Below are positions 4,202 through 26,755 of a stretch of DNA of 28,328 nt, piece by piece. Every line of letters starts with the position of its first letter. The first letter of the stretch is position 1. The notes beneath the pieces were generated by a model, which saw only the letters and a list, made by a program, of their open reading frames with translations, was not told the DNA's origin and searched no databases. The DNA comes from a virus, in the IMG/VR virus record IMGVR_UViG_3300028569_000135, positions 1 to 28,328 of that record; one strand, given 5' to 3'. The translations under genes were made by a program, and so were the position numbers.

Positions 4202-4873
4202 ATGGCTTTACGCTTATTAGTTGAAACACCGGCTCCTGAAGAGCAATTTGAATACATTTTAGAAGAAAAGAATTCTAAAGAACCAGCAAGACTTTATATT
4301 CAAGGTCCTTACATGATGTGTGAGACAGTTAATAAGAACCAACGAATTTATTCACGAGATGACATGGAAAAAGAAGTCAACCGTTATGTTACAGAGATGG
4401 TTAATACAAAAAGAGCCATGGGAGAATTAAACCACCCTACATCAGCTGAGGTTAATCTTGAGAGAGCGTGTCATATTGTTAATAACATGAGAATGGAAGG
4501 TAATCTTGTAATAGGCAAGTCACAAGTATTATCTACGCCTATGGGTCAAATTGTTCGTTCATTAATTAATGACGGTGTTAAGGTTGGTATGTCTAGCCGC
4601 GCACTTGGTAAATTAAATGAAGGTACCGGTGGTGTCAATCGTGTTACTGATATGAGATTAGTAGCGGTTGACTGTGTTGCTGATCCATCGTGTCCAAAAG
4701 CTTTTGTTAACGGTATTCTCGAAAGTAAACAATTTGTTTTAGATATGAATGGTGCTTTAGAAGAAGTTTATGAAGGCTTAGAAAAAGCCATTAAGAATCT
4801 TCCAGCAAAAGAAGTTCAAACATATCTTAAGGAACAAATTATTTCCTTTTTTACATTTCTAAGAACATCATGA
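4202..4873 (+). CDS. 21: Prohead core serine protease gp21
   Basis: This is the assembly protease that cleaves scaffold, core and capsid proteins after (L/I)-x-E during prohead maturation. The order of T4 gp21 motifs is kept: 'LYIQGPYMMCETVNKNQRIY' (T4 'LYIEGIFLQAEVVNRNKRLY'), 'GELNHP' with catalytic H78, 'VGMSSRALG' with catalytic S132 (T4 'GVSSRGLG'), and 'VAVDCVADPSCP' with D157 (T4 'VGVDAVWGPSAP'). Length is 223 aa against 212 in T4. The last 10 codons run to the start of the next gene, overlapping it as ATGA. The start is fixed by the promoter box 5 nt upstream. Confidence 0.94.
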   Translation: MALRLLVETPAPEEQFEYILEEKNSKEPARLYIQGPYMMCETVNKNQRIYSRDDMEKEVNRYVTEMVNTKRAMGELNHPTSAEVNLERACHIVNNMRMEGNLVIGKSQVLSTPMGQIVRSLINDGVKVGMSSRALGKLNEGTGGVNRVTDMRLVAVDCVADPSCPKAFVNGILESKQFVLDMNGALEEVYEGLEKAIKNLPAKEVQTYLKEQIISFFTFLRTS

Positions 4874-6235: not shown

Positions 6236-7117
6236 ATGGACAACAAAATAACAGACGCTTTAAAGACAGCAACAAAAGACATTCTCACAGAGGATGTTTT
6301 AAAAGAAATCGAATCCGCATTTAATGCCTCTGTTGATGAAAAAGTAAAACTTCATGTAGAAAAAGCTCTTATGGAGCAAGATTCTGATTATTCAAAGAAG
6401 CTTGAAACCCTTTTAGAAGCTCTTGATACCGATCATACAAATAAGCTCAAGATGGTTGTTGAAGCCATTGATTCTGATAGAGCAAAAAAATTAAAAGCAG
6501 TTGTTTCGAGATATGAAAATGCTCTTAATAAAGAAGCCAAAAATTTTAAAGACACTTTAGTTGAACAGGTTAGCAAGTATCTCGAGGTTTACCTCGATGA
6601 GAAAGTGCCTTCTACTGAAATAAACGAAGCAGTAAAGAATAAGAGAGCAATCTCTGTACTTGAAGAAATTCGTAAACTTCTCTCCGTTGATATGGCACTC
6701 GCGAATGACAACATTCGTGATGCAGTTGTTGACGGCAAGCAGAAAATAGATGAAGCTGCATCGCAGCTTGAAGCCGCTAATAAGCAGGTTAATAAACTCT
6801 CTGATGAGAATAAGAAGCTAAAAGCAAATCTTGTTCTTGAGACGAAAGTATCCAATCTTGATGAGGACAGAAAAACTTACATGAAGAAGATGCTTGCGAA
6901 CAGAACAGCAGAGTTTATCTTGGAGAACTTTAACTATACATTAAAGCTCTATGAAAAAACTGAAGAAGAGCGGCTTGTAAATCTTAAGTCTGAAGCTTTA
7001 ACTGAAGCTTCTTCAAATGCAGTCGATAGACCAGTAATTGAAGAGTCAGCAGTTACAGGAGAAGAAGCAGTTGATCCGTCATTCAATAACTACCTCTCCG
7101 AGCTACAGAAGTATTAA
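6236..7117 (+). CDS. 22: Prohead scaffold protein gp22
   Basis: The 293-aa product is almost entirely charged and alpha-helical, with heptad-like coiled-coil stretches (about residues 50-110 and 160-205), as expected for the major scaffold of a T4-like prohead (T4 gp22 is 269 aa). Three short tandem segments near residues 53-90 repeat the pattern 'S/T-D-x-x-K-K-L-x-x-(L/V)-(V/L)-E-A-(L/I)-D'. Several I/L-x-E sites suit degradation by the gp21 protease on maturation. It lies between the protease/core genes and the capsid gene, the conserved T4 position, and that context carries much of the assignment. Confidence 0.9.
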   Translation: MDNKITDALKTATKDILTEDVLKEIESAFNASVDEKVKLHVEKALMEQDSDYSKKLETLLEALDTDHTNKLKMVVEAIDSDRAKKLKAVVSRYENALNKEAKNFKDTLVEQVSKYLEVYLDEKVPSTEINEAVKNKRAISVLEEIRKLLSVDMALANDNIRDAVVDGKQKIDEAASQLEAANKQVNKLSDENKKLKANLVLETKVSNLDEDRKTYMKKMLANRTAEFILENFNYTLKLYEKTEEERLVNLKSEALTEASSNAVDRPVIEESAVTGEEAVDPSFNNYLSELQKY

Positions 7118-7195: not shown

Positions 7196-8704
7196 ATGGC
7201 AAAACAAATCCGTCCTACACAGGCTTACATTGATGAGTCACGTGCGCGCGTTTTGCTTGAGAAGTGGGCACCAGTATTGGACTACTCCTCAAACAACGTC
7301 GCAACGATTGAAGACGATCACACTCGTTTAAACACCGCCATCCTCCTGGAAAACCAAGAGAAGTGGTGTTTCGAAGCCAGCAATTCTGCTGGTGGCACGG
7401 GTGGAGTATTTAGTGGTGGCAGCATCGATAATGGTGGAGCTGGCAATCAGTTCCCCTCACAAAATGATGGTGCTTATGCTCCTAACGACTCACGACTCCC
7501 TAAGATCCTCATTCCGATGATTCGCCGTACGTTCCCTGAGTTGATCACTAACGAAATCGTTGGTGTTCAGCCCATGAGCGGACCCGTAGGTCTAGCTTTT
7601 GCACTCCGTTATAAGTACGAACCTACAAGCTTAGGTTATCAGTCTGGTAGCATTGATGGTAACACTGGCGCCACCCAATTCGGTGGTTCCACAAACCGTC
7701 AAGGTCTATCGGCTAATCCTGAGCTAGGTTATCAGTACCTCAACTCCGGATTCACCGGTACCACCACGAATGCATTTTCTGGTGCTGCTGGTTACTTCAC
7801 AATGGTTGATCAGGACAAGGGTGTTGCACAGTTGCTCGCTAATTTCGAGTTAAACAGCAATATTCCTCAGGTCGTGGTCAGCTTTGAGAAGACCGCTGTT
7901 GAAGCTGGTACCCGTAGACTCGCTGCTCGTTGGTCAGTTGAACTCGAGCAGGATCTGAAGAACATGAACGGTATTGATATCGATACTGAGCTCACAAACG
8001 CTATGTCGTATGAGCTACAGGCCGAAATCGATCGTGAAATGATCATCAGAATGATCCAAACAGCCCTTAACGCTGGATATGGCACAGGCTTCTCAGTCTG
8101 GTCGCCCGTTTCAGCCGACGGCCGTTGGCTCGTTGAGCGTAATCGTGACTTCTATCAGAGGCTTATTGTTGAGGCTAACAGAATTGCAGTACGTAACCGC
8201 CGTGGCGCGGCTAACTTCATCGTAGGTACACCTCGTGTGTGCGCTATCCTTGAAATGTTACCCGAGTTCCAGTGGGTTCCAGTACAGGGCAATGTTAACA
8301 CTCAGCCCGTAGGCGTCGCTAAAGTTGGATCATTGGGTGGTCGTTTTAACGTTTACCGTGACACTCGTACAGAGGCACAGTTTGAGGCTAACGCCGGAGG
8401 AAACTTCGGTGGCAATGGTGGATTCCCTCCCTATGGCACTAGCACTCGCGATCGACGTCTTGAGTACGCCCTCCTTGGTTACAAGGGTCCGGAATTCTAT
8501 GACACTGGTATCATCTATTGTCCTTACATTCCGGTTATGGTGCAGAGAACTATTGGTCCTAATGACTTCGCTCCTCGCGTTGGTCTATTAACACGTTATG
8601 GTGTTGTAGATAACATCTTTGGTGCGAATCTTTACTACCACGTAATTATTCTGCAAGGTCTCGGAACAGCGTTCCTACCTGGCCAGCAATCAGTCTACTT
8701 CTAA
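7196..8704 (+). CDS. 23: Major capsid protein gp23
   Basis: It forms the hexamers of the head shell. It matches T4 gp23 at 'GVQPMSGPVGLAFALR' (T4 'GVQPMNSPTGQVFALR'), 'RRLAARWSVELEQDLKNMNG' (T4 'RQLKAAYSIELAQDLRAVHG'), 'GKFIV/ANFIVGTPRV', 'LGGRFNVYRD', 'LLGYKGPEFYDTGIIYCPYI' and 'FAPRVGLLTRYGV'. Length is 502 aa against 521. The gp21 cleavage site is expected near residue 60 (T4: 65), where the sequence reads CFE|A rather than the canonical (L/I)xE; LLE|N at 50-52 is the alternative. Codon use is visibly more GC-rich and selective than in flanking genes, as expected for the most abundant virion protein. Confidence 0.98.
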   Translation: MAKQIRPTQAYIDESRARVLLEKWAPVLDYSSNNVATIEDDHTRLNTAILLENQEKWCFEASNSAGGTGGVFSGGSIDNGGAGNQFPSQNDGAYAPNDSRLPKILIPMIRRTFPELITNEIVGVQPMSGPVGLAFALRYKYEPTSLGYQSGSIDGNTGATQFGGSTNRQGLSANPELGYQYLNSGFTGTTTNAFSGAAGYFTMVDQDKGVAQLLANFELNSNIPQVVVSFEKTAVEAGTRRLAARWSVELEQDLKNMNGIDIDTELTNAMSYELQAEIDREMIIRMIQTALNAGYGTGFSVWSPVSADGRWLVERNRDFYQRLIVEANRIAVRNRRGAANFIVGTPRVCAILEMLPEFQWVPVQGNVNTQPVGVAKVGSLGGRFNVYRDTRTEAQFEANAGGNFGGNGGFPPYGTSTRDRRLEYALLGYKGPEFYDTGIIYCPYIPVMVQRTIGPNDFAPRVGLLTRYGVVDNIFGANLYYHVIILQGLGTAFLPGQQSVYF

Positions 8705-9373: not shown

Positions 9374-10283
9374 CAGTTTTAGTAAAGTATTTCCACTTGT
9401 CCCACATAGCATGGTTCTCTTTTAATAACTCTTGGCTACTAGCTCTAATAGGATTAATATCAATACCACCACGTCTTACATATAGACACGCAACCATTAG
9501 TTCTTCTGGTTTAGTCAAATCATATAGACGTTTATAAATGGTCTCACAAATCTCTTCATGAAAATGACATTCATCTCTGAATGAGACTATGTATTGTAAT
9601 AAAGAAGTTTGATTAAGCTCATAAGGTCCTTTGTAATGAATATAAACATCACCCCAATCCGGTTGAGATGTGACCCTGCAATTACTCTTTAATAGGGCTG
9701 AATGAAAGCGTTGAACCTTGCTTGTATTATTATCAAGCCAGCCTAATAGCTTAGGATCTTCCTTATAGCCGCGAGATTTAATTGACGTTACATCAATATT
9801 ATTTTCCAAGGTAGGGTAGTTGGCGCTAGAGAATAAAGGTGGATAATACATCGCATCATCAATAGCTTTTGTTAGTCTCACACAAACTCTAACTTCTGTT
9901 TCTAATAATTTAGATAAATCGTTTTCCATAACAGCTTCAAGCTGCTGTAAAACACTAATAATATTGCCTTGATATGTCTCCATATTAAATGAATTCATAT
10001 AGAGCTTAATAGACTTTGACTCAACAATATATTTGTTAGTTGCAGGGTATACAACCTTAGCAATAGCAGAGACCGGCATTCCTTCATTAGTTAAACAAGA
10101 CACTTCATAAGCATTCCAGATATCATAACCGTAAAACGGAGGATTATCATCAGAGATATCTAAATGCTTTCTATTATTCTGTCTCGGCTCACGAACCAAG
10201 AGCGAGGGGTCGTAGGTACATTTATACCCGGTTATTTTACCAAGATGCTTTGATATATTACTATTATCTAATTCCGTATTCAT
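9363..10283 (-). CDS. queF: NADPH-dependent 7-cyano-7-deazaguanine (preQ0) reductase QueF, long form
   Basis: QueF reduces the nitrile of preQ0 to the aminomethyl of preQ1. The 306-aa product aligns with the bimodular E. coli type (282 aa): 'YGYDIWNAYEVSCL' (E. coli 'HGTDIWTLYELSWL'), the family signature 'ESKSIKLYMNSFN' at residues 88-100, 'LLKSNCRVTSQPDWGD' with catalytic C202 and D209, 'FHE' at 241-243, and 'YVRRGGIDINPIR' near the end. All catalytic residues are present. It is the last gene of a six-gene minus-strand operon that begins with dpdA, and it overlaps the upstream P-loop gene by 20 nt. The context points to supply of preQ1 for DNA modification rather than tRNA queuosine. Confidence 0.96.
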   Translation of the reverse strand: MNTELDNSNISKHLGKITGYKCTYDPSLLVREPRQNNRKHLDISDDNPPFYGYDIWNAYEVSCLTNEGMPVSAIAKVVYPATNKYIVESKSIKLYMNSFNMETYQGNIISVLQQLEAVMENDLSKLLETEVRVCVRLTKAIDDAMYYPPLFSSANYPTLENNIDVTSIKSRGYKEDPKLLGWLDNNTSKVQRFHSALLKSNCRVTSQPDWGDVYIHYKGPYELNQTSLLQYIVSFRDECHFHEEICETIYKRLYDLTKPEELMVACLYVRRGGIDINPIRASSQELLKENHAMWDKWKYFTKTVRQ

Positions 10284-12772: not shown

Positions 12773-15577
12773 ATGAAGTATCCGACATATTACGGAAATT
12801 ATCTTGGAATTGTTATTCAAAATAATGATCCTCTTAAGCAGGGAAGAGTTAAAGTCTTTGTACCGCATATTTCGCCTTCTGTTTATAATAAATGGAACGA
12901 AGTTGTAAGAGATAAAAAATTTAAATTTATAGGTAGGAATAACTTTAGTGACCTTACAGATATTTTAGACGATCTTAAGAAGATATTACCATGGGCACAT
13001 TTATCTGTTCCGCTTGCTGGTGAAAGTAGCAGCGGTAGATACAACAACTTTAATAACACTGGTACGATTAGTGATGGTAGTAATTTAAAAACAACTACTA
13101 GCAGTCTAACCTCTAACGCAATTGAGCCAGAAAACTTAACAAAATTTACTCAAAATTTGGACAACATAGGTGAGAAGCCTGGCAATTTATTTGATATAAG
13201 TTATTACAAATTAAAAGACGCTTTTACTAGCCCCGCAGAGACTAATGTTAATAACGTTAATAAATATAGCTTTAATTATACACCAGAGTGTTATAGTAAT
13301 TGTGCAAAAGGCAATTTTCCTATACCAAGTGTAGGTTCACACGTATGGGTGTTCTTTAATAGCGGTGATCCTTTATATCCTGTAGTATTTGGTTCTTCTT
13401 TTGGTAGCGAAGACTGGAAGGGCATCTTTAATATACCTAGAACAGATATACCTGAACTATCTGCTAAGGCTGATCACGGTTTAGATTATCCAGGTGAATA
13501 TGAAAACAACCTTCCTAAGGACGGTAAATATAATATTAATACCGAAACGTATAGAAATAAATACGTTATTAATCAAAAAGGCGGTACGATTGCTTTTATT
13601 AATTCTGATAATAGAGAGTCATTAAAACTGTCTCATTACTCCGGCTCGTTTAAAGAATTTAATAATCAAGCAAATATTGAACTAGCAACAAACAATGATC
13701 AAAAACTAGTATTAAACGATCAATTTCTAACGGTAAGAGGAACAAGAAATGAATTTACTCAACTTGATTACGATAATATAGTACAAGGAGACGTCTTTAA
13801 GAAAATAGGCAACTTAAAGGCTGATCTGCATAAACAATGGAAAGAGATATATAGTGACATAGCAGAGGTAAAGAGATTATTTGATATTCAAAGAACCGAT
13901 TATGCGGAAAGCAGTAACGGTGATAGATTGACATCTAAGTTTCAAAAAAAGAACGGCAAGCCAGATCCTTGCCCAGTTTGTAATAAAGATACAAACAAAT
14001 ATTTTGTTTATAATAATTCTGTAGTCCCTTCTTTTGTAAATCTGGTTTTTCCTTCAACTGCTGATGCCAGTGGTGACTTTGTTTTTGGTCTTTCATTTTC
14101 TAGTGTAGGTAATATTATTAATAGTGTTCAGAATTTAATGAACTTAGGGTCACCACAGCTTGCATCACCTCTTACAAATTTAGGGTTCTCAAACGGACCC
14201 GGCTATATATTCGGCAATAAGTGTCCTGCATGCAATGGTACTGGTATAAGCCCTAGCTCTCAAGGTGGAGAGTTTACTAAGGATACTGAAAAAGCTAACG
14301 TTAACGCTTTATACAGAGATAATATAGTTAAACTAGCAGAAATCGAAAAACAAATGGGGCTTGGTGGTAGCGAAATAATTGAAATTACTAAGCATAAAAT
14401 TGAAACTATTGGTATGGTTATGAACGATTTTGGTTCCATTAGAGTAGATCCAAAAGGTAAAATGTATATATCTGAAGTTAAAGTTCATGAATTTGGAACA
14501 TTTTACAACAGAACACCTACACCATTAGTTGAACTAGTTCACGTTGATGATCTACCTGGTGGTAATTATACGCTTAATGTGTGCAACCGTTATAACGTTC
14601 TTGTTGGAGCAGGTGGATTAAATCTTAAATCTTATGGCGTTGTTAATGTAAGTGGTTCTATTACTAATGTAGCTGGATCGCAGGTAAACATCTCCAGTGA
14701 ATTAGAGACAAATATAGATGGTGGAAAGAGATTATCTCTCACCGGTGATGTAGTAAGTATCAAGCAACGAGATGGTAAGCAAGTAGTAGTAGAAGGTTCA
14801 TTAGGAGTGACAAATAATGTTGTAATAGCAGGTGGTTTGCATGTAGAGGGTGAGATAACATTTAATCATTTAACTCATCCAATTGAACTTCAGAATACAG
14901 AAGGCGCTACCGCTTTTGCAGCCCCAGTATCAGACATAACCAATCAAACCGGTGCATGTATAGGATTTGGCGTGTTTAATAATAATGTGCCAATACCAGT
15001 ACAAAAATTAGGCACAACATATTACAAATATAATCCTGCTCCATCATATACCGGTGCACCTTGGATGGGCTTCACAGATGCACAACGAATCTGTGGAAGG
15101 TTGTTTAAAGATCTGCCTATAGGTTATATCAAGACAGGCACAATAACTAGTAAAGGTATAGTAGATTCAACTGGAGAACCAGTTACAGTTACAAATATAG
15201 CAGATGTACCGGTTTATGCATCAGCAACAGGATATCCCGGAGGAGGTGATACCCCGGTGTATGGATCTGGACCTGGTTCCGCAGGTCCGTGGTCACCAGT
15301 AGGAGCTGCACCATTTGATGGCTGCATAAAGGCGATATTTACCGGTGGTACTGATCCACGTCTCTTTGGAAGTGTACTTAACCCAAATACAATGCCTATT
15401 ATGGTTTTTGGTGCAGGTAGAGATGAAGATTGTATAAAAGTTGCAACACATTCACATGTTTATAAGACTCATCCAAGTACATTAAAACATAGAAATGCAG
15501 ATGTAAGAGAAGTAGCAATTAATAAAGATGGTCCAATAATGTGTGAATCTATAAACAATAGGCCTACAAGCGGTTAA
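12773..15577 (+). CDS. 5: Baseplate hub/central spike protein, gp5-like without lysozyme domain
   Basis: Residues 1-35 begin the OB fold of T4 gp5 ('GNYLGIVIQNNDPLKQGRVKV' region; T4 'FVGVVEDRMDPLKLGRVRV'), with 'LPWAHLSVP' (T4 'LPWMSVIQP'). It resumes after an insertion at 'IPSVGSHVWVFFNSGDPLYP'. The gp5 lysozyme domain is missing; instead a long helical and loop region carries two CxxC pairs, C400/C403 and C484/C487, the second in 'CPACNGTG' like DnaJ zinc knuckles. Residues about 560-700 are short beta repeats like the gp5 triple beta-helix. The end has 'HSHVYKTHP' (HxH), possibly a metal-binding spike tip. It punctures the outer membrane at the tail tip. The length of 934 aa is large. A TGTAAATA box lies 13 nt before the start. 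Confidence 0.85.
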   Translation: MKYPTYYGNYLGIVIQNNDPLKQGRVKVFVPHISPSVYNKWNEVVRDKKFKFIGRNNFSDLTDILDDLKKILPWAHLSVPLAGESSSGRYNNFNNTGTISDGSNLKTTTSSLTSNAIEPENLTKFTQNLDNIGEKPGNLFDISYYKLKDAFTSPAETNVNNVNKYSFNYTPECYSNCAKGNFPIPSVGSHVWVFFNSGDPLYPVVFGSSFGSEDWKGIFNIPRTDIPELSAKADHGLDYPGEYENNLPKDGKYNINTETYRNKYVINQKGGTIAFINSDNRESLKLSHYSGSFKEFNNQANIELATNNDQKLVLNDQFLTVRGTRNEFTQLDYDNIVQGDVFKKIGNLKADLHKQWKEIYSDIAEVKRLFDIQRTDYAESSNGDRLTSKFQKKNGKPDPCPVCNKDTNKYFVYNNSVVPSFVNLVFPSTADASGDFVFGLSFSSVGNIINSVQNLMNLGSPQLASPLTNLGFSNGPGYIFGNKCPACNGTGISPSSQGGEFTKDTEKANVNALYRDNIVKLAEIEKQMGLGGSEIIEITKHKIETIGMVMNDFGSIRVDPKGKMYISEVKVHEFGTFYNRTPTPLVELVHVDDLPGGNYTLNVCNRYNVLVGAGGLNLKSYGVVNVSGSITNVAGSQVNISSELETNIDGGKRLSLTGDVVSIKQRDGKQVVVEGSLGVTNNVVIAGGLHVEGEITFNHLTHPIELQNTEGATAFAAPVSDITNQTGACIGFGVFNNNVPIPVQKLGTTYYKYNPAPSYTGAPWMGFTDAQRICGRLFKDLPIGYIKTGTITSKGIVDSTGEPVTVTNIADVPVYASATGYPGGGDTPVYGSGPGSAGPWSPVGAAPFDGCIKAIFTGGTDPRLFGSVLNPNTMPIMVFGAGRDEDCIKVATHSHVYKTHPSTLKHRNADVREVAINKDGPIMCESINNRPTSG

Positions 15578-21780: not shown

Positions 21781-22959
21781 ATGGCTGATACAATTACGAA
21801 AATACTGATACGAAAAGGTACCGATGTTCAGCGCAGAACAGCAGACTCGACAGGAATTATTTTCAGTAGTGGTGAGCCTGGATGGTGTTTTGATACTAAA
21901 AGATTATTTGTAGGTGACGGCTCTTCTTCTGGTGGGTTTCCTGTTGGTATGGCTAATCTTGGCTCCGTTCAAGTATTTTACGGCGGAGCAACTAACGGAT
22001 TTACTAACGAAGCGCTCAATGCTTTTAATGTTTATGGAGCAGTAGCAGGAGATATAATTTATGATAGAGATACCCGCTCAATATATTCCTTAACAAGTAG
22101 TAATAATTTTCCACCACTAACTTCTGACTTTGTAAAATATGATGTCTCGCCTCTTTTAAATGAAGACATGCTTGAATATAATCTTTCAAGAGAAATACAA
22201 ATAAAAAATGGTGGTGTTGGACCGTCCCAGGTTGGGTTTGGTGTTGTCGACGGTGTCACTCTTGTAAAAACAGCAGTAGCAGATCCTATTTCAGTTAGAG
22301 ATGGTGGTATAACAAATGCAAAGTTAACCACGATGTACCCCAATACAGTTAAGGCCAATAGCTCTACGACTGCAGCATCACCGGTAGATGTAAGAGTATT
22401 TCCACGACAAGTAGTAGGAAGAACAGCATCATCAAACTTAACAGCATTTTCCTTTGATACAATTCTAGCTGAATCTTCTTTTAATGGCACAAACGGTGTA
22501 ATTGTTGATAAAACTGGTATAACTGTTAACGTAAGGCTTGATACAACAAAAATTACTTTAGGTTCGTCAATTAATCTTAGAGTACCTACAGTTGTAAATT
22601 CAACATTGAGTGCATCGGGTAATATAACCTGCGCGCAAGATATTATTGCTTATGCCTCTCTTTCAGATGAAAGATTAAAGAACGATTTAGTAAAGCTAGA
22701 GAGCCCACTTACAACGGTTACTACGCTAAATGGTTATGAATTTACATTCAATAACGAAGCACCAGAGCATTTAGCTAACAAAAAGTCTTACGGGTTAATT
22801 GCACAAGAAGTTGAAAAAGTACTGCCTCATGCTGTTGATCAAAGACCGAGCGGATTTAAGGGAGTTGATTATGAGAAAGTAATTCCTCTTCTTGTCGAGT
22901 GTATTAAGGAATTAAAAACAGAGATTGATACTTTAAAATGCAATTCAATAAACAAATAA
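21781..22959 (+). CDS. Tail fibre/spike with C-terminal S74 intramolecular chaperone
   Basis: The first 60 residues ('ITKILIRKG...RRTADSTGIIFSSGEPGW...RLFVGDG') are the glycine-rich module usual at the start of phage fibre proteins. The middle is beta-rich. The end is a peptidase S74 chaperone: 'SDERLKND' with the S295/K300 Ser-Lys dyad, 'GYEFTF', 'YGLIAQEVEKVLPHAV', 'VDYEKVIPLLVECIKELK'. In this family the chaperone trimerises the fibre and then cleaves itself off just before the Ser. It is a likely receptor-binding protein. Length is 392 aa. A late-type ATTAAATA box lies 10 nt before the ATG. Confidence 0.92.
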   Translation: MADTITKILIRKGTDVQRRTADSTGIIFSSGEPGWCFDTKRLFVGDGSSSGGFPVGMANLGSVQVFYGGATNGFTNEALNAFNVYGAVAGDIIYDRDTRSIYSLTSSNNFPPLTSDFVKYDVSPLLNEDMLEYNLSREIQIKNGGVGPSQVGFGVVDGVTLVKTAVADPISVRDGGITNAKLTTMYPNTVKANSSTTAASPVDVRVFPRQVVGRTASSNLTAFSFDTILAESSFNGTNGVIVDKTGITVNVRLDTTKITLGSSINLRVPTVVNSTLSASGNITCAQDIIAYASLSDERLKNDLVKLESPLTTVTTLNGYEFTFNNEAPEHLANKKSYGLIAQEVEKVLPHAVDQRPSGFKGVDYEKVIPLLVECIKELKTEIDTLKCNSINK

Positions 22960-23132
22960 AAAAAATCTTAGAAGATTTTAATGTTTATCCACAAGCACAA
23001 ACAGCAGCTAGTATGGGACCTGACGCAGGAATGACATCTGGTGATCAACAAAACACATTTCCCAGCAAAATGACTTCTTTAAAAGTACAGTTACCTAAGA
23101 AAAAAAAGTCTAAGCTGAAAAGAAGAGTTTAG
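22938..23132 (+). CDS. Small basic protein with capsid-targeting-like N-terminus
   Basis: 64 aa overlapping the end of the fibre gene by 22 nt. It begins 'MQFNKQIKKILE|D', closely like the start of the lysozyme gene on the opposite strand ('MRFNNLVKKLLE|A'). Both end in the (I/L)-x-E motif cut by T4-type prohead protease. The C-terminus 'PKKKKSKLKRRV' is strongly basic, suitable for DNA binding inside the head. It may be an internal head protein. The 3' end overlaps the convergent lysozyme gene by 23 nt. Confidence 0.6.
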   Translation: MQFNKQIKKILEDFNVYPQAQTAASMGPDAGMTSGDQQNTFPSKMTSLKVQLPKKKKSKLKRRV

Positions 23133-23682
23133 CTAGATTATTAGCTCTTCCTTTTACTTGACCAGCCCATTTGCTGTTTAGGATCTCTTCTCCAGCTTTC
23201 TTGTAATTACCGTCAGTAATATGTTGCTTTGTAATATTAAATTTACTCAGTCGAGTATAACCTAAATTAAAAGACATATCTAGTACAGCTAGCTTTACGT
23301 TGCGTGGTAATCCATCAAACTGGGGAAGAAATTTCTTTGCATCGTTATAAGCTGTCTTGACGTTAATTTGAAATAACGTTTTAATCTGATCGTCAGTTAA
23401 GTCTTGCTGACCATTTATTACTTTGTTATAATCTGCACCAATACTTTTAATTATAGCCGGTGCATCAGGTCTTGTTAGATTAAATCCTATACCAATTGTC
23501 TTCTTACCTACTGAATCAAGATAGACATGGTTCTTATGACCCTCGTGCTTTCTTATTAAATTAAGCACGTCATCGAAAGTAATACGCGTATCTGCTACAT
23601 TCTGAACAATAGCAGAGGAAGGCGGAGGCGGGACATCAGAAACGGCTTCTAATAGCTTCTTTACAAGGTTGTTAAATCGCAC
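23110..23682 (-). CDS. T4-type lysozyme (GH24) with N-terminal propeptide-like extension
   Basis: It hydrolyses peptidoglycan MurNAc-GlcNAc bonds. The catalytic set has exact T4 spacing: E47, D56, T62 ('RKHEGHKNHVYLDSVGKKTIGIG'-type segment; T4 E11, D20, T26). The remainder matches the lysozyme C-lobe ('AVLDMSFNLG', 'LNSKWAGQVKGRA'). The start is GTG at 23680-23682, supported by ATTAAATA-ATTAG-GTG. A 30-residue extension, MRFNNLVKKLLE|A then a Pro-rich linker, precedes the domain; it is not a signal peptide but fits a capsid-targeting sequence. It lies next to the 3D-domain protein. Either endolysin or packaged lysozyme is possible; the hub here lacks a lysozyme domain. Confidence 0.9.
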   Translation of the reverse strand: MRFNNLVKKLLEAVSDVPPPPSSAIVQNVADTRITFDDVLNLIRKHEGHKNHVYLDSVGKKTIGIGFNLTRPDAPAIIKSIGADYNKVINGQQDLTDDQIKTLFQINVKTAYNDAKKFLPQFDGLPRNVKLAVLDMSFNLGYTRLSKFNITKQHITDGNYKKAGEEILNSKWAGQVKGRANNLAKLFFSA

Positions 23683-23687
23683 CTAAT

Positions 23688-23695
23688 TATTTAAT
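23688..23695 (-). promoter_or_regulatory. Late-promoter box ATTAAATA before lysozyme
   Basis: ATTAAATA-ATTAG-GTG on the minus strand, exactly 5 nt before a GTG start; it overlaps the end of the upstream gene. Confidence 0.65.
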
Positions 23696-24248
23696 TAAGC
23701 ACTGCAACCTTTACAATCTTAGGATACCTGTTGGCAAAAATTTCAGCATCAACTTTATTAACAAAGAATACATCAATAACAGGCATTGTACCATGGGAAG
23801 CCACTTTATCCTTAACAGCTGTACCAGTATCAACAGCTCTAACTAACCCAACGTTAGGTATAATGACTTCTTTATGGTAAGGTATAATACGCGGATCAAC
23901 AGCAATAGAATCACCTTGCTTGAGTGTATAGCCTGTAGAACTACGAAGCCTTCTACTATCAGCATCTGTAGAACCACCGCGTGCCCAGTATACAGTTAGT
24001 CTAGCTGTTAACACCCTACAATCGCTACTCGTTGTAGGTATAAGTGTATTACAAAACATAATACCCTCTTTCTTAACTTGAATATTATTTGCTAACTTAG
24101 CTTCTTCCTTAGGTGCAAGATTCTTAAGCTGTTGCTTGACATCCTTTACAGTCAATGGACGTGGAGTGTAGAACATTGTCATGCTTGCTGTGGTTGTAGT
24201 GAGTAATATACCTATTACTATAGCTATTGTGGTTTGTGTTTTTTTCAT
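23691..24248 (-). CDS. 3D-domain (MltA-like) secreted wall protein
   Basis: 185 aa. Residues about 8-26 form a hydrophobic N-terminal segment after MKKTQ, a signal anchor or signal peptide. Residues about 80-183 fit the 3D domain, a double-psi barrel found in cell-wall lytic transglycosylases: 'TVYW..GGSTDADSRRLRSSTG', 'IAVDPRIIPYHKEVII' (D118), 'RAVDTGTAVK' (D140), 'PVIDVFF' (D159), the three aspartates that give the domain its name. It probably acts on peptidoglycan in the periplasm during lysis. It lies directly upstream of the lysozyme gene. A short hairpin GCCG-TTCT-CGGC lies before its start. Confidence 0.87.
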   Translation of the reverse strand: MKKTQTTIAIVIGILLTTTTASMTMFYTPRPLTVKDVKQQLKNLAPKEEAKLANNIQVKKEGIMFCNTLIPTTSSDCRVLTARLTVYWARGGSTDADSRRLRSSTGYTLKQGDSIAVDPRIIPYHKEVIIPNVGLVRAVDTGTAVKDKVASHGTMPVIDVFFVNKVDAEIFANRYPKIVKVAVLN

Positions 24249-24791: not shown

Positions 24792-25064
24792 TTATTTTCC
24801 AGCTATACGAGAGATGTCTTGAATAATATTATTAAGGTTTAAGAGAATATAATTATAGTCTTCTTTAAGTCCTCTTTGAGCTCTTTTTGTCATGTTGTTT
24901 AGTTCAAGTGCTATGCGCTTACGAAGTGTATCTGTTGATTCTTCCTGCTCTTCTCTACTAGCAGGGTACTCCATTACCTTATATGAATAGCCCGTCTCTT
25001 TGGTTGTGGTATGATTGATACCTTGATCATAGTTTTCATATATAGCTTTTATATCCTTCTTCAC
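24792..25064 (-). CDS. Small helical protein with capsid-targeting-like N-terminus
   Basis: 90 aa, starting at the GTG at 25062-25064 because TATAAGTA lies exactly 5 nt upstream. It begins 'MKKDIKAIYE|N', which ends in the I-x-E cleavage motif. The rest is charged and helical ('LRKRIALELNNMTKRAQRGL...'). There is no known family. A packaged internal head protein is the favoured guess from the N-terminus. Confidence 0.68.
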   Translation of the reverse strand: MKKDIKAIYENYDQGINHTTTKETGYSYKVMEYPASREEQEESTDTLRKRIALELNNMTKRAQRGLKEDYNYILLNLNNIIQDISRIAGK

Positions 25065-26431: not shown

Positions 26432-26440
26432 TTATTTCTT
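26423..26440. terminator. 18-bp perfect palindrome across two convergent stops
   Basis: AAGAAATAATTATTTCTT reads the same on both strands. It contains the stop codons of the Hc1-like gene (TAA) and of the opposing gene (TAA on the minus strand). It is a candidate bidirectional terminator. Confidence 0.5.
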
Positions 26441-26755
26441 TAAAGTAAGTTGTCTCTTACGTTCGCCCTTATGAACAGAGGCGATAGTACGGACAACCTC
26501 TGTGGCTCGTTCAAAGGTATCGGCCATCTTATAAATGGCCTCTAGAATATCGTATGCTATACCCCGGGCACGGAGATCAGAATTAATCTTCATGAAGGGT
26601 AAGGTGTGGGCTTTTTCTTCTTGTGCTTCCGGTGTTGTGGCAAGAGCTGTCATGGGACGAGCGGGTACAACGGGGGTGGAGGTATTGGTAGGAGGCACCG
26701 CAGGAAGACCCGGGGTAGAGTAAGCCTCAAAGATTAATTTACAATCACGATTCAT
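26432..26755 (-). CDS. Small basic protein with capsid-targeting-like N-terminus
   Basis: 107 aa. It begins 'MNRDCKLIFE|A', again ending in I-x-E followed by Ala, then a Pro/Thr-rich linker and a helical C-terminal half with a basic end ('HKGERKRQLTLKK'). Unlike most genes here it has a Shine-Dalgarno-like AAAGGA about 6 nt before the ATG, fitting its place as the second gene after 26903-26745, which it overlaps by 11 nt. No family is recognised. It may be a packaged internal protein. Confidence 0.68.
   Translation of the reverse strand: MNRDCKLIFEAYSTPGLPAVPPTNTSTPVVPARPMTALATTPEAQEEKAHTLPFMKINSDLRARGIAYDILEAIYKMADTFERATEVVRTIASVHKGERKRQLTLKK

Follow-up and report, generated by a model that had tools for sequence, protein, structure and literature searches.

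The window, the stretch of DNA analyzed here, comprises an entire IMG/VR record (28,328 bases) and is a fragment of a T4-like phage. Its relevant genes and features are the following.

4202 to 4873, forward strand: gp21-like prohead protease (PF03420, E = 1.1e-35), the proposed tag remover; its own N-terminus, MALRLLVE then T, is tag-like.
6236 to 7117, forward strand: probable gp22-like scaffold with many [IL]xE sites, assigned from its position between the protease and major capsid protein (MCP) genes and from the motif list; no Pfam match.
7196 to 8704, forward strand: gp23-like MCP (PF07068, E = 7.8e-87), with cleavage predicted after E60 from the alignment to T4 gp23 and from tagged arm fusions.
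12773 to 15577, forward strand: gp5-like baseplate hub/spike without a lysozyme domain (PF04717, Phage_base_V OB domain, E = 4.7e-10).
22938 to 23132, forward strand: small basic convergent gene, 64 aa, with a tag of its own, MQFNKQIKKILE then D, that is replaced by IPIII-type tags in relatives G001 and L153.
23110 to 23682, reverse strand: GH24 (T4-type) lysozyme of 190 aa with a GTG start and the catalytic residues E47/D56/T62 (PF00959, E = 2.9e-9).
23578 to 23646, reverse strand: Pro-rich disordered linker, lysozyme residues 13 to 35 (pLDDT below 50 through residue 30); relative G015 has the same linker ahead of a different enzyme.
23647 to 23682, reverse strand: N-terminal tag MRFNNLVKKLLE, lysozyme residues 1 to 12, with predicted cleavage after E12, recognized from conservation, tag statistics, and swaps.
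23691 to 24248, reverse strand: 3D-domain protein (PF06725, E = 5.6e-6) whose N-terminus is a hydrophobic signal or anchor; its gene lies 8 nt upstream from that of the lysozyme.
24792 to 25064, reverse strand: 90-aa protein with the tag-like N-terminus MKKDIKAIYE then NY; in G012, a similar body (NHTTTK) stands behind another tag, MKPFKKFIE then D.
26432 to 26755, reverse strand: 107-aa protein with the tag-like N-terminus MNRDCKLIFE then AY; a 289- to 315-aa family of relatives has the same N-terminus.

The PF00959 match of the lysozyme covers residues 45 to 174 and scores 37.7 bits against a cutoff of 22.3, and a profile search returned T4 lysozyme structures as matches. Orthologues found in viral contigs were 54 to 98% identical to it. 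E47, D56, and T62 were invariant across nine aligned orthologues and are spaced as E11, D20, and T26 of the T4 e gene (read from NC_000866). In the AlphaFold2 model, a T4 lysozyme fold extends from residue 36 onward with pLDDT mostly above 80, and the best Foldseek match was 1l86 (E = 1.3e-7). The score above the cutoff, the catalytic Glu/Asp/Thr, and the fold place the enzyme in GH24/PF00959. Thus, the original prediction of a T4-type lysozyme with exact T4 triad spacing was confirmed by the Pfam match, the comparison with T4 e, and the nine-orthologue alignment. The T4 e lysozyme shares the fold, the catalytic residues, and their spacing but has neither the tag nor the linker. In the window protein, these first 35 residues were modeled as a low-confidence helix (residues 3 to 14) followed by a disordered linker, with pLDDT below 50 at residues 1 to 30. 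A hydrophobic signal-peptide core was absent from residues 1 to 45, where the best 15-residue window had a mean of 0.65 versus 1.97 in the neighboring 3D protein; a signal peptide or SAR anchor on this lysozyme was thus ruled out. The model and the hydrophobicity values agree with the earlier description of the N-terminus as a tag-like sequence plus a Pro-rich linker and not a signal peptide.

In T4, the internal proteins IPI, IPII, IPIII, and Alt carry a capsid-targeting tag (CTS) that is cut by gp21, a short hydrophobic N-terminal sequence ending in [IL]xE. The lysozyme tag is likewise a short aromatic/hydrophobic N-terminal sequence, ending in LLE, and a gp21-family prohead protease is encoded by the same phage. 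Four tag positions (M1, F3, L11, and E12) were invariant in all nine aligned orthologues, with most of the others being variable. The tags of relatives, such as MKTFKEFYLE, are close to those of T4 ipI (MKTFKEF) and ipII/ipIII (MKTYQEFIAE, then A). In contrast to the T4 internal proteins, the putative cargo is a peptidoglycan hydrolase and the tag is about one helical turn longer. The tag was present at 14 of 17 clade loci (53 to 88% identity). At the other three (L151, L153, and L155, the last cut at its contig start), an unrelated N-terminus ends at exactly the tag's Glu junction, reading VAE then GADLPPPP, VKE then DADLPP, or VKE then DVDQPSP. The replacement segment (L151, 9875 to 10549; L153, 9893 to 10561; and L155) has a homologue in other relatives, where it forms a small protein on its own (QLYGGEISDYY).

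The tag was also evaluated statistically. When a tag profile was trained on the neighbor-gene tags, T4 ipII/ipIII, and gp2, with the lysozymes left out, the lysozyme family ranked second of 534 families at N-termini, and none of 2,122 internal windows scored as high; one family member with a miscalled start scored nothing. The strict IPIII pattern [FY]xx[FY][FYILVC]xE was sought in 1,147 gene calls from the window plus five relatives and was found at 12 N-termini from 8 families, against 1.38 hits and 0.64 families expected from internal positions, although the lysozyme tag itself, being longer than that of IPIII, does not match it. A conserved-family motif test yielded 12 of 145 families at N-termini versus 1 to 8 at internal positions, with several of the 12 probably not being CTS cargo (a 51- to 62-aa family, the gp22-like scaffold, a synthase-like family starting STKIIELGSCAF, and a 268- to 302-aa family). 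The loosest motif test was weak (36.4 family-weighted N-termini versus 22.2 ± 3.8 in shuffled sequences and 20 to 27 at internal positions), and the count for a "lysozyme-type" pattern is not independent, as that pattern was derived from these very tags. A simple positional count of [ILV]xE showed only a weak peak and a modest excess, so the conserved-family, profile, and IPIII-pattern tests were used instead. Judged by sequence, the lysozyme tag is beyond chance, and the first 12 residues are a recurrent, swappable tag of the T4 capsid-targeting type that ends at a Glu junction.

The small basic gene downstream of and convergent on the lysozyme gene is unrelated to it in its body and has the same kind of tag. 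Its body is joined to differing tags: MQFNKQIKKILE then D in the window, MNLKFYNLVASLLE then A in G006, MTFKEYFKE then A in G001, and MNFKQFFYE then E in L153, the last two being of the T4 IPIII type. One tag type common to several unrelated proteins of one phage, as is characteristic of a CTS, was found here. The lysozyme and neighbor tags both end hydrophobic-hydrophobic-E in 10 of 11 genome pairs, the exception being L004 with the neighbor tag MTFKEYFKE. The likeness of the two tags within a genome gave a permutation P of 0.0075 for 11 pairs and 0.020 for 9 pairs, a result kept out of the main evidence, as the genomes are not independent of one another and the fit of some pairs was below average. 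The 11 pairs were picked from 24 rows at one row per genome, leaving out same-genome repeats (L002, L003, L087 to L090, and L092), near-repeats (L152, L154, L158, and L160), L005 (neighbor start miscalled), and L153 (tag replaced); L004 and L162 were removed for the 9-pair count.

Tags of this kind were also seen in other settings. IPIII-like tags (MTFKRFLAE then Q) start proteins with a PGGFKPPHKGHF motif at G006 97741, G008 105425, and G001 60582; the motif is presumably nucleotidyltransferase-like, and packaging may extend to an enzyme of nucleotide or cofactor metabolism. In L153, a 146-aa protein starting MQTFKEFYDF (9453 to 9893; no Pfam match) lies between the 3D gene and the lysozyme gene. 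Three nearby genes in L171 (5519 to 8241) have the tags FNQFINE, FESWINE, and FESFIRE, and one of them is a lysozyme with an added domain. In T4 itself (NC_000866, 65416 to 66997; L147), the e gene is directly adjacent to ipIII and ipII, an arrangement resembling that of the lysozyme and the tagged small gene here.

The capsid protein provided a second view of the tag junction. T4 gp23 loses 65 residues (PMC9026906). Alignment of the window MCP to T4 gp23 predicted a cut after E60, KWCFE then ASNSAGG, the T4 site being LTE then A. In four relatives, small basic tagged proteins are homologous to the MCP from around this predicted scissile Glu and cover the mature N-terminal arm (best E values between 4e-12 and 1e-15). 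Their tags are MITFQQFYKE, MITFNQFCSE, MITFKQYFNE, and MKSIVSFKAKFLELLE (loci L125, L133, L109, and L119, i.e., G001 54399, G002 67677, G006 92639, and G008 101345). Four natural fusions thus place a tag of this kind in front of a mature head protein, at the bond where cleavage is expected.

Different catalytic domains can stand behind the tag. At the corresponding locus of G015 and G011, with a 3D-domain protein upstream and a fiber-like gene on the opposite strand, the same type of tag precedes a nonhomologous enzyme, Hydrolase_2 (PF07486, E = 1.7e-13 and 4e-7), and the G015 protein also has the linker PPPPPAIIQKAE. Scans with these two enzymes gave 16 loci, 11 of which are of the tagged-locus type; 10 of these were inspected, the remaining one (L254) being the G011 contig itself. 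Examples of the tags are MKFNNLVKKILE then Q (L259 and L260), MKFDDLVVSIIE then Q (L257 and L258), and MQFDDRVKELLNE then A (L247). The G015-type loci L245 and L246, with the tag MRFNELVNEIM/I then GDL, miss the Glu at the usual place and count against a strict rule. The other five loci (L248 to L252) match in the enzyme part only, and the three inspected (L248, L249, and L252) are without a tag. That the tag stays constant while the enzyme behind it changes suggests that delivery, and not one particular enzyme, is under selection.

GH24 enzymes are common as endolysins, and G003 and G007, which are without the tagged enzyme, have an untagged GH24 gene beside a membrane protein, a typical lysis pair. 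The window gene could be an ordinary late endolysin of this sort, with the N-terminal helix being incidental or a regulatory tail. However, the tag is conserved, recurs on unrelated genes, persists where another catalytic domain has taken over, and is swapped at the Glu junction, and we consider this explanation improbable.

A role for the tagged enzyme in lysis in addition to packaging deserves more weight. The 3D-domain gene is also upstream of the tagged enzyme in relatives, and a membrane-targeted 3D protein beside the lysozyme, together with a GH108 gene in two relatives, resembles a lysis neighborhood. The lysozyme might be packaged via its tag, with the unpackaged surplus serving as a late endolysin released by a holin, although no holin was identified. 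The tagged GH24 is the sole PF00959 match in each of the seven records having it, the lysozyme lies 8 nt behind the membrane-targeted protein, and the window, G001, G002, and G014 yielded no GH108, Hydrolase_2, M15, or Amidase_2 gene. These records are all fragments, however, which makes the absence of a second endolysin weak evidence. On the other side, an untagged GH108 gene is present in G006, G008, G012, and G015 and an M15 peptidase gene in G011, so that five relatives keep the tagged hydrolase despite a separate untagged endolysin-type gene. Such dual use is conceivable, though we do not favor it. G016 had no second endolysin among the families searched there (G014 and G016 were outside some family searches, and G016 was outside the SLT search), and Amidase_2 was found in none of 17 records; the endolysin search covered GH24, GH108, Hydrolase_2, M15, Amidase_2, and SLT. 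The search for another endolysin in the genome, suggested at the outset, thus gave a divided answer: none in the window fragment among the families searched, and separate endolysin-type genes in five relatives. A T4-type late promoter, TATAAATA, had 3 matches versus 5.3 expected. As for isolated relatives, neither a DNA match nor a hub match was found in the phage collection.

The original prediction also held that the baseplate hub lacks the internal lysozyme of T4 gp5, and this was borne out. The lysozyme HMM matched T4 gp5 (4.5e-29, 89 bits) and left the window hub unmatched (0.17, -0.5 bits); among the gene calls, none of the hubs of five relatives was matched either. T4 gp5 holds a GH24 domain related to the window lysozyme inside its hub, the mark of a gp5-type tail lysozyme; the window hub contains no such domain, and a gene of its own encodes the lysozyme. 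Hubs of the gp5 type that lack lysozyme are nothing out of the ordinary; phage P1 has one (PMC9024508). P1 also has an N-terminal head-targeting signal, on DarB, and is thought to use an SLT domain of the tape measure protein (PMC9024508); the window phage instead has a separate tagged lysozyme. Among 11 records, SLT was found only in G002, as one domain in a long open reading frame. Between the OB and C-terminal parts of the window hub, two CxxC pairs (CPVC and CPAC) resemble a zinc-binding insert.

With such a hub, a separate tail-bound lysozyme would be logical, and the gene upstream of the hub in G011 has a 3D domain. Nevertheless, the tag type is that of the T4 head-internal proteins and is common to the capsid-arm fusion proteins, and it is very improbable that the tag attaches the lysozyme to the tail or baseplate and not into the head. 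The 3D domain in G011 (L239, about 77.7 to 78.0 kb) is close to that of the window 3D protein and suggests a tail-associated wall enzyme in that relative.

We consider it probable that the lysozyme is a CTS-type internal head protein, which would be taken up by the prohead, lose its first 12 residues there, and be ejected when the phage infects. The sequence comparisons give good support to packaging and trimming; action on the wall at entry is less certain. For T4, PMC9026906 (section 2.6) states that 10 N-terminal residues of IPIII are enough for targeting and that processing depends on residues 8 and 10. In the window phage, the tag helix would bind the prohead core and target the lysozyme there, and the gp21-like protease would cut after E12 during head maturation. 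The mature enzyme (A13 to A190), with its flexible linker, would stay in the head with the DNA and be ejected through the tail at infection. It may then open or trim the peptidoglycan, making up for the lysozyme-free spike. The internal proteins of T4 end up in the cytoplasm (PMC9026906) and not in the periplasm, so to act on the wall a packaged lysozyme would have to be set free in the periplasm while the tube passes through. The head-targeting propeptide that was first proposed is thus strongly supported as a putative signal by the shared and swapped tags, the catalytic-domain replacement, the capsid-arm fusions, and the separate endolysin-type genes of five relatives, whereas we only infer that wall digestion has moved from the tail spike to the ejected enzyme.

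The known CTS cargo of T4 consists of anti-restriction and host-takeover proteins. The T7 gp16-type internal virion lysozyme/transglycosylase is a wall hydrolase inside the virion, as proposed for the window lysozyme, which has a weak profile overlap with phrog_2083, "internal virion lysozyme motif" (E = 2.1e-5). However, T7 uses a core protein complex and not a cleaved CTS, and its phage type differs from that of the window phage. As reported previously, CTS-tagged internal proteins are known for T4 (PMC3012670 and PMC5694885) and a packaging signal is known for P1 DarB (PMC9024508), and lysozyme and PF07486 domains have been proposed in large injected phage proteins (PMC5512222). In a literature search of open-license papers, mostly of titles and abstract starts, no description of a free-standing lysozyme as CTS cargo was found. 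If the proposal is true, contractile-tailed phages would have a further way of bringing along wall-cutting activity, namely a wall hydrolase carried as CTS cargo. In addition, the tag and its Glu junction would constitute a readable rule for predicting injected proteins in uncultured T4-like phages.

A second T4-like group was examined at 13 loci, several of them near-identical (L170, L173 to L175, L177, L178, L187, L194, L217, L221, L223, L224, and L226). Here, a signal-peptide-like segment comes after a T4-like start of the lysozyme, for example, MTFKEHFNKTQIQEE then G or MKSFKTYYYIQEE then G. In 11 of the 13, small basic genes with a tag, such as MKFNVLVEQYLTE then A, are found immediately downstream, and L174 and L221 contain a homologue of the window hub. 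This arrangement would allow export after injection; alternatively, the start may be an extended signal peptide of an exported endolysin. Tentatively, and with less confidence than for the window lysozyme, the head CTS might be a general delivery label for peptidoglycan hydrolases (GH24 and Hydrolase_2) in environmental T4-type phages, with packaging, trimming, and cytoplasmic injection in the second group being followed by Sec export to the wall from inside. Nine of the 13 second-group lysozymes were read with a GTG start, and the start in L173 is without the Glu.
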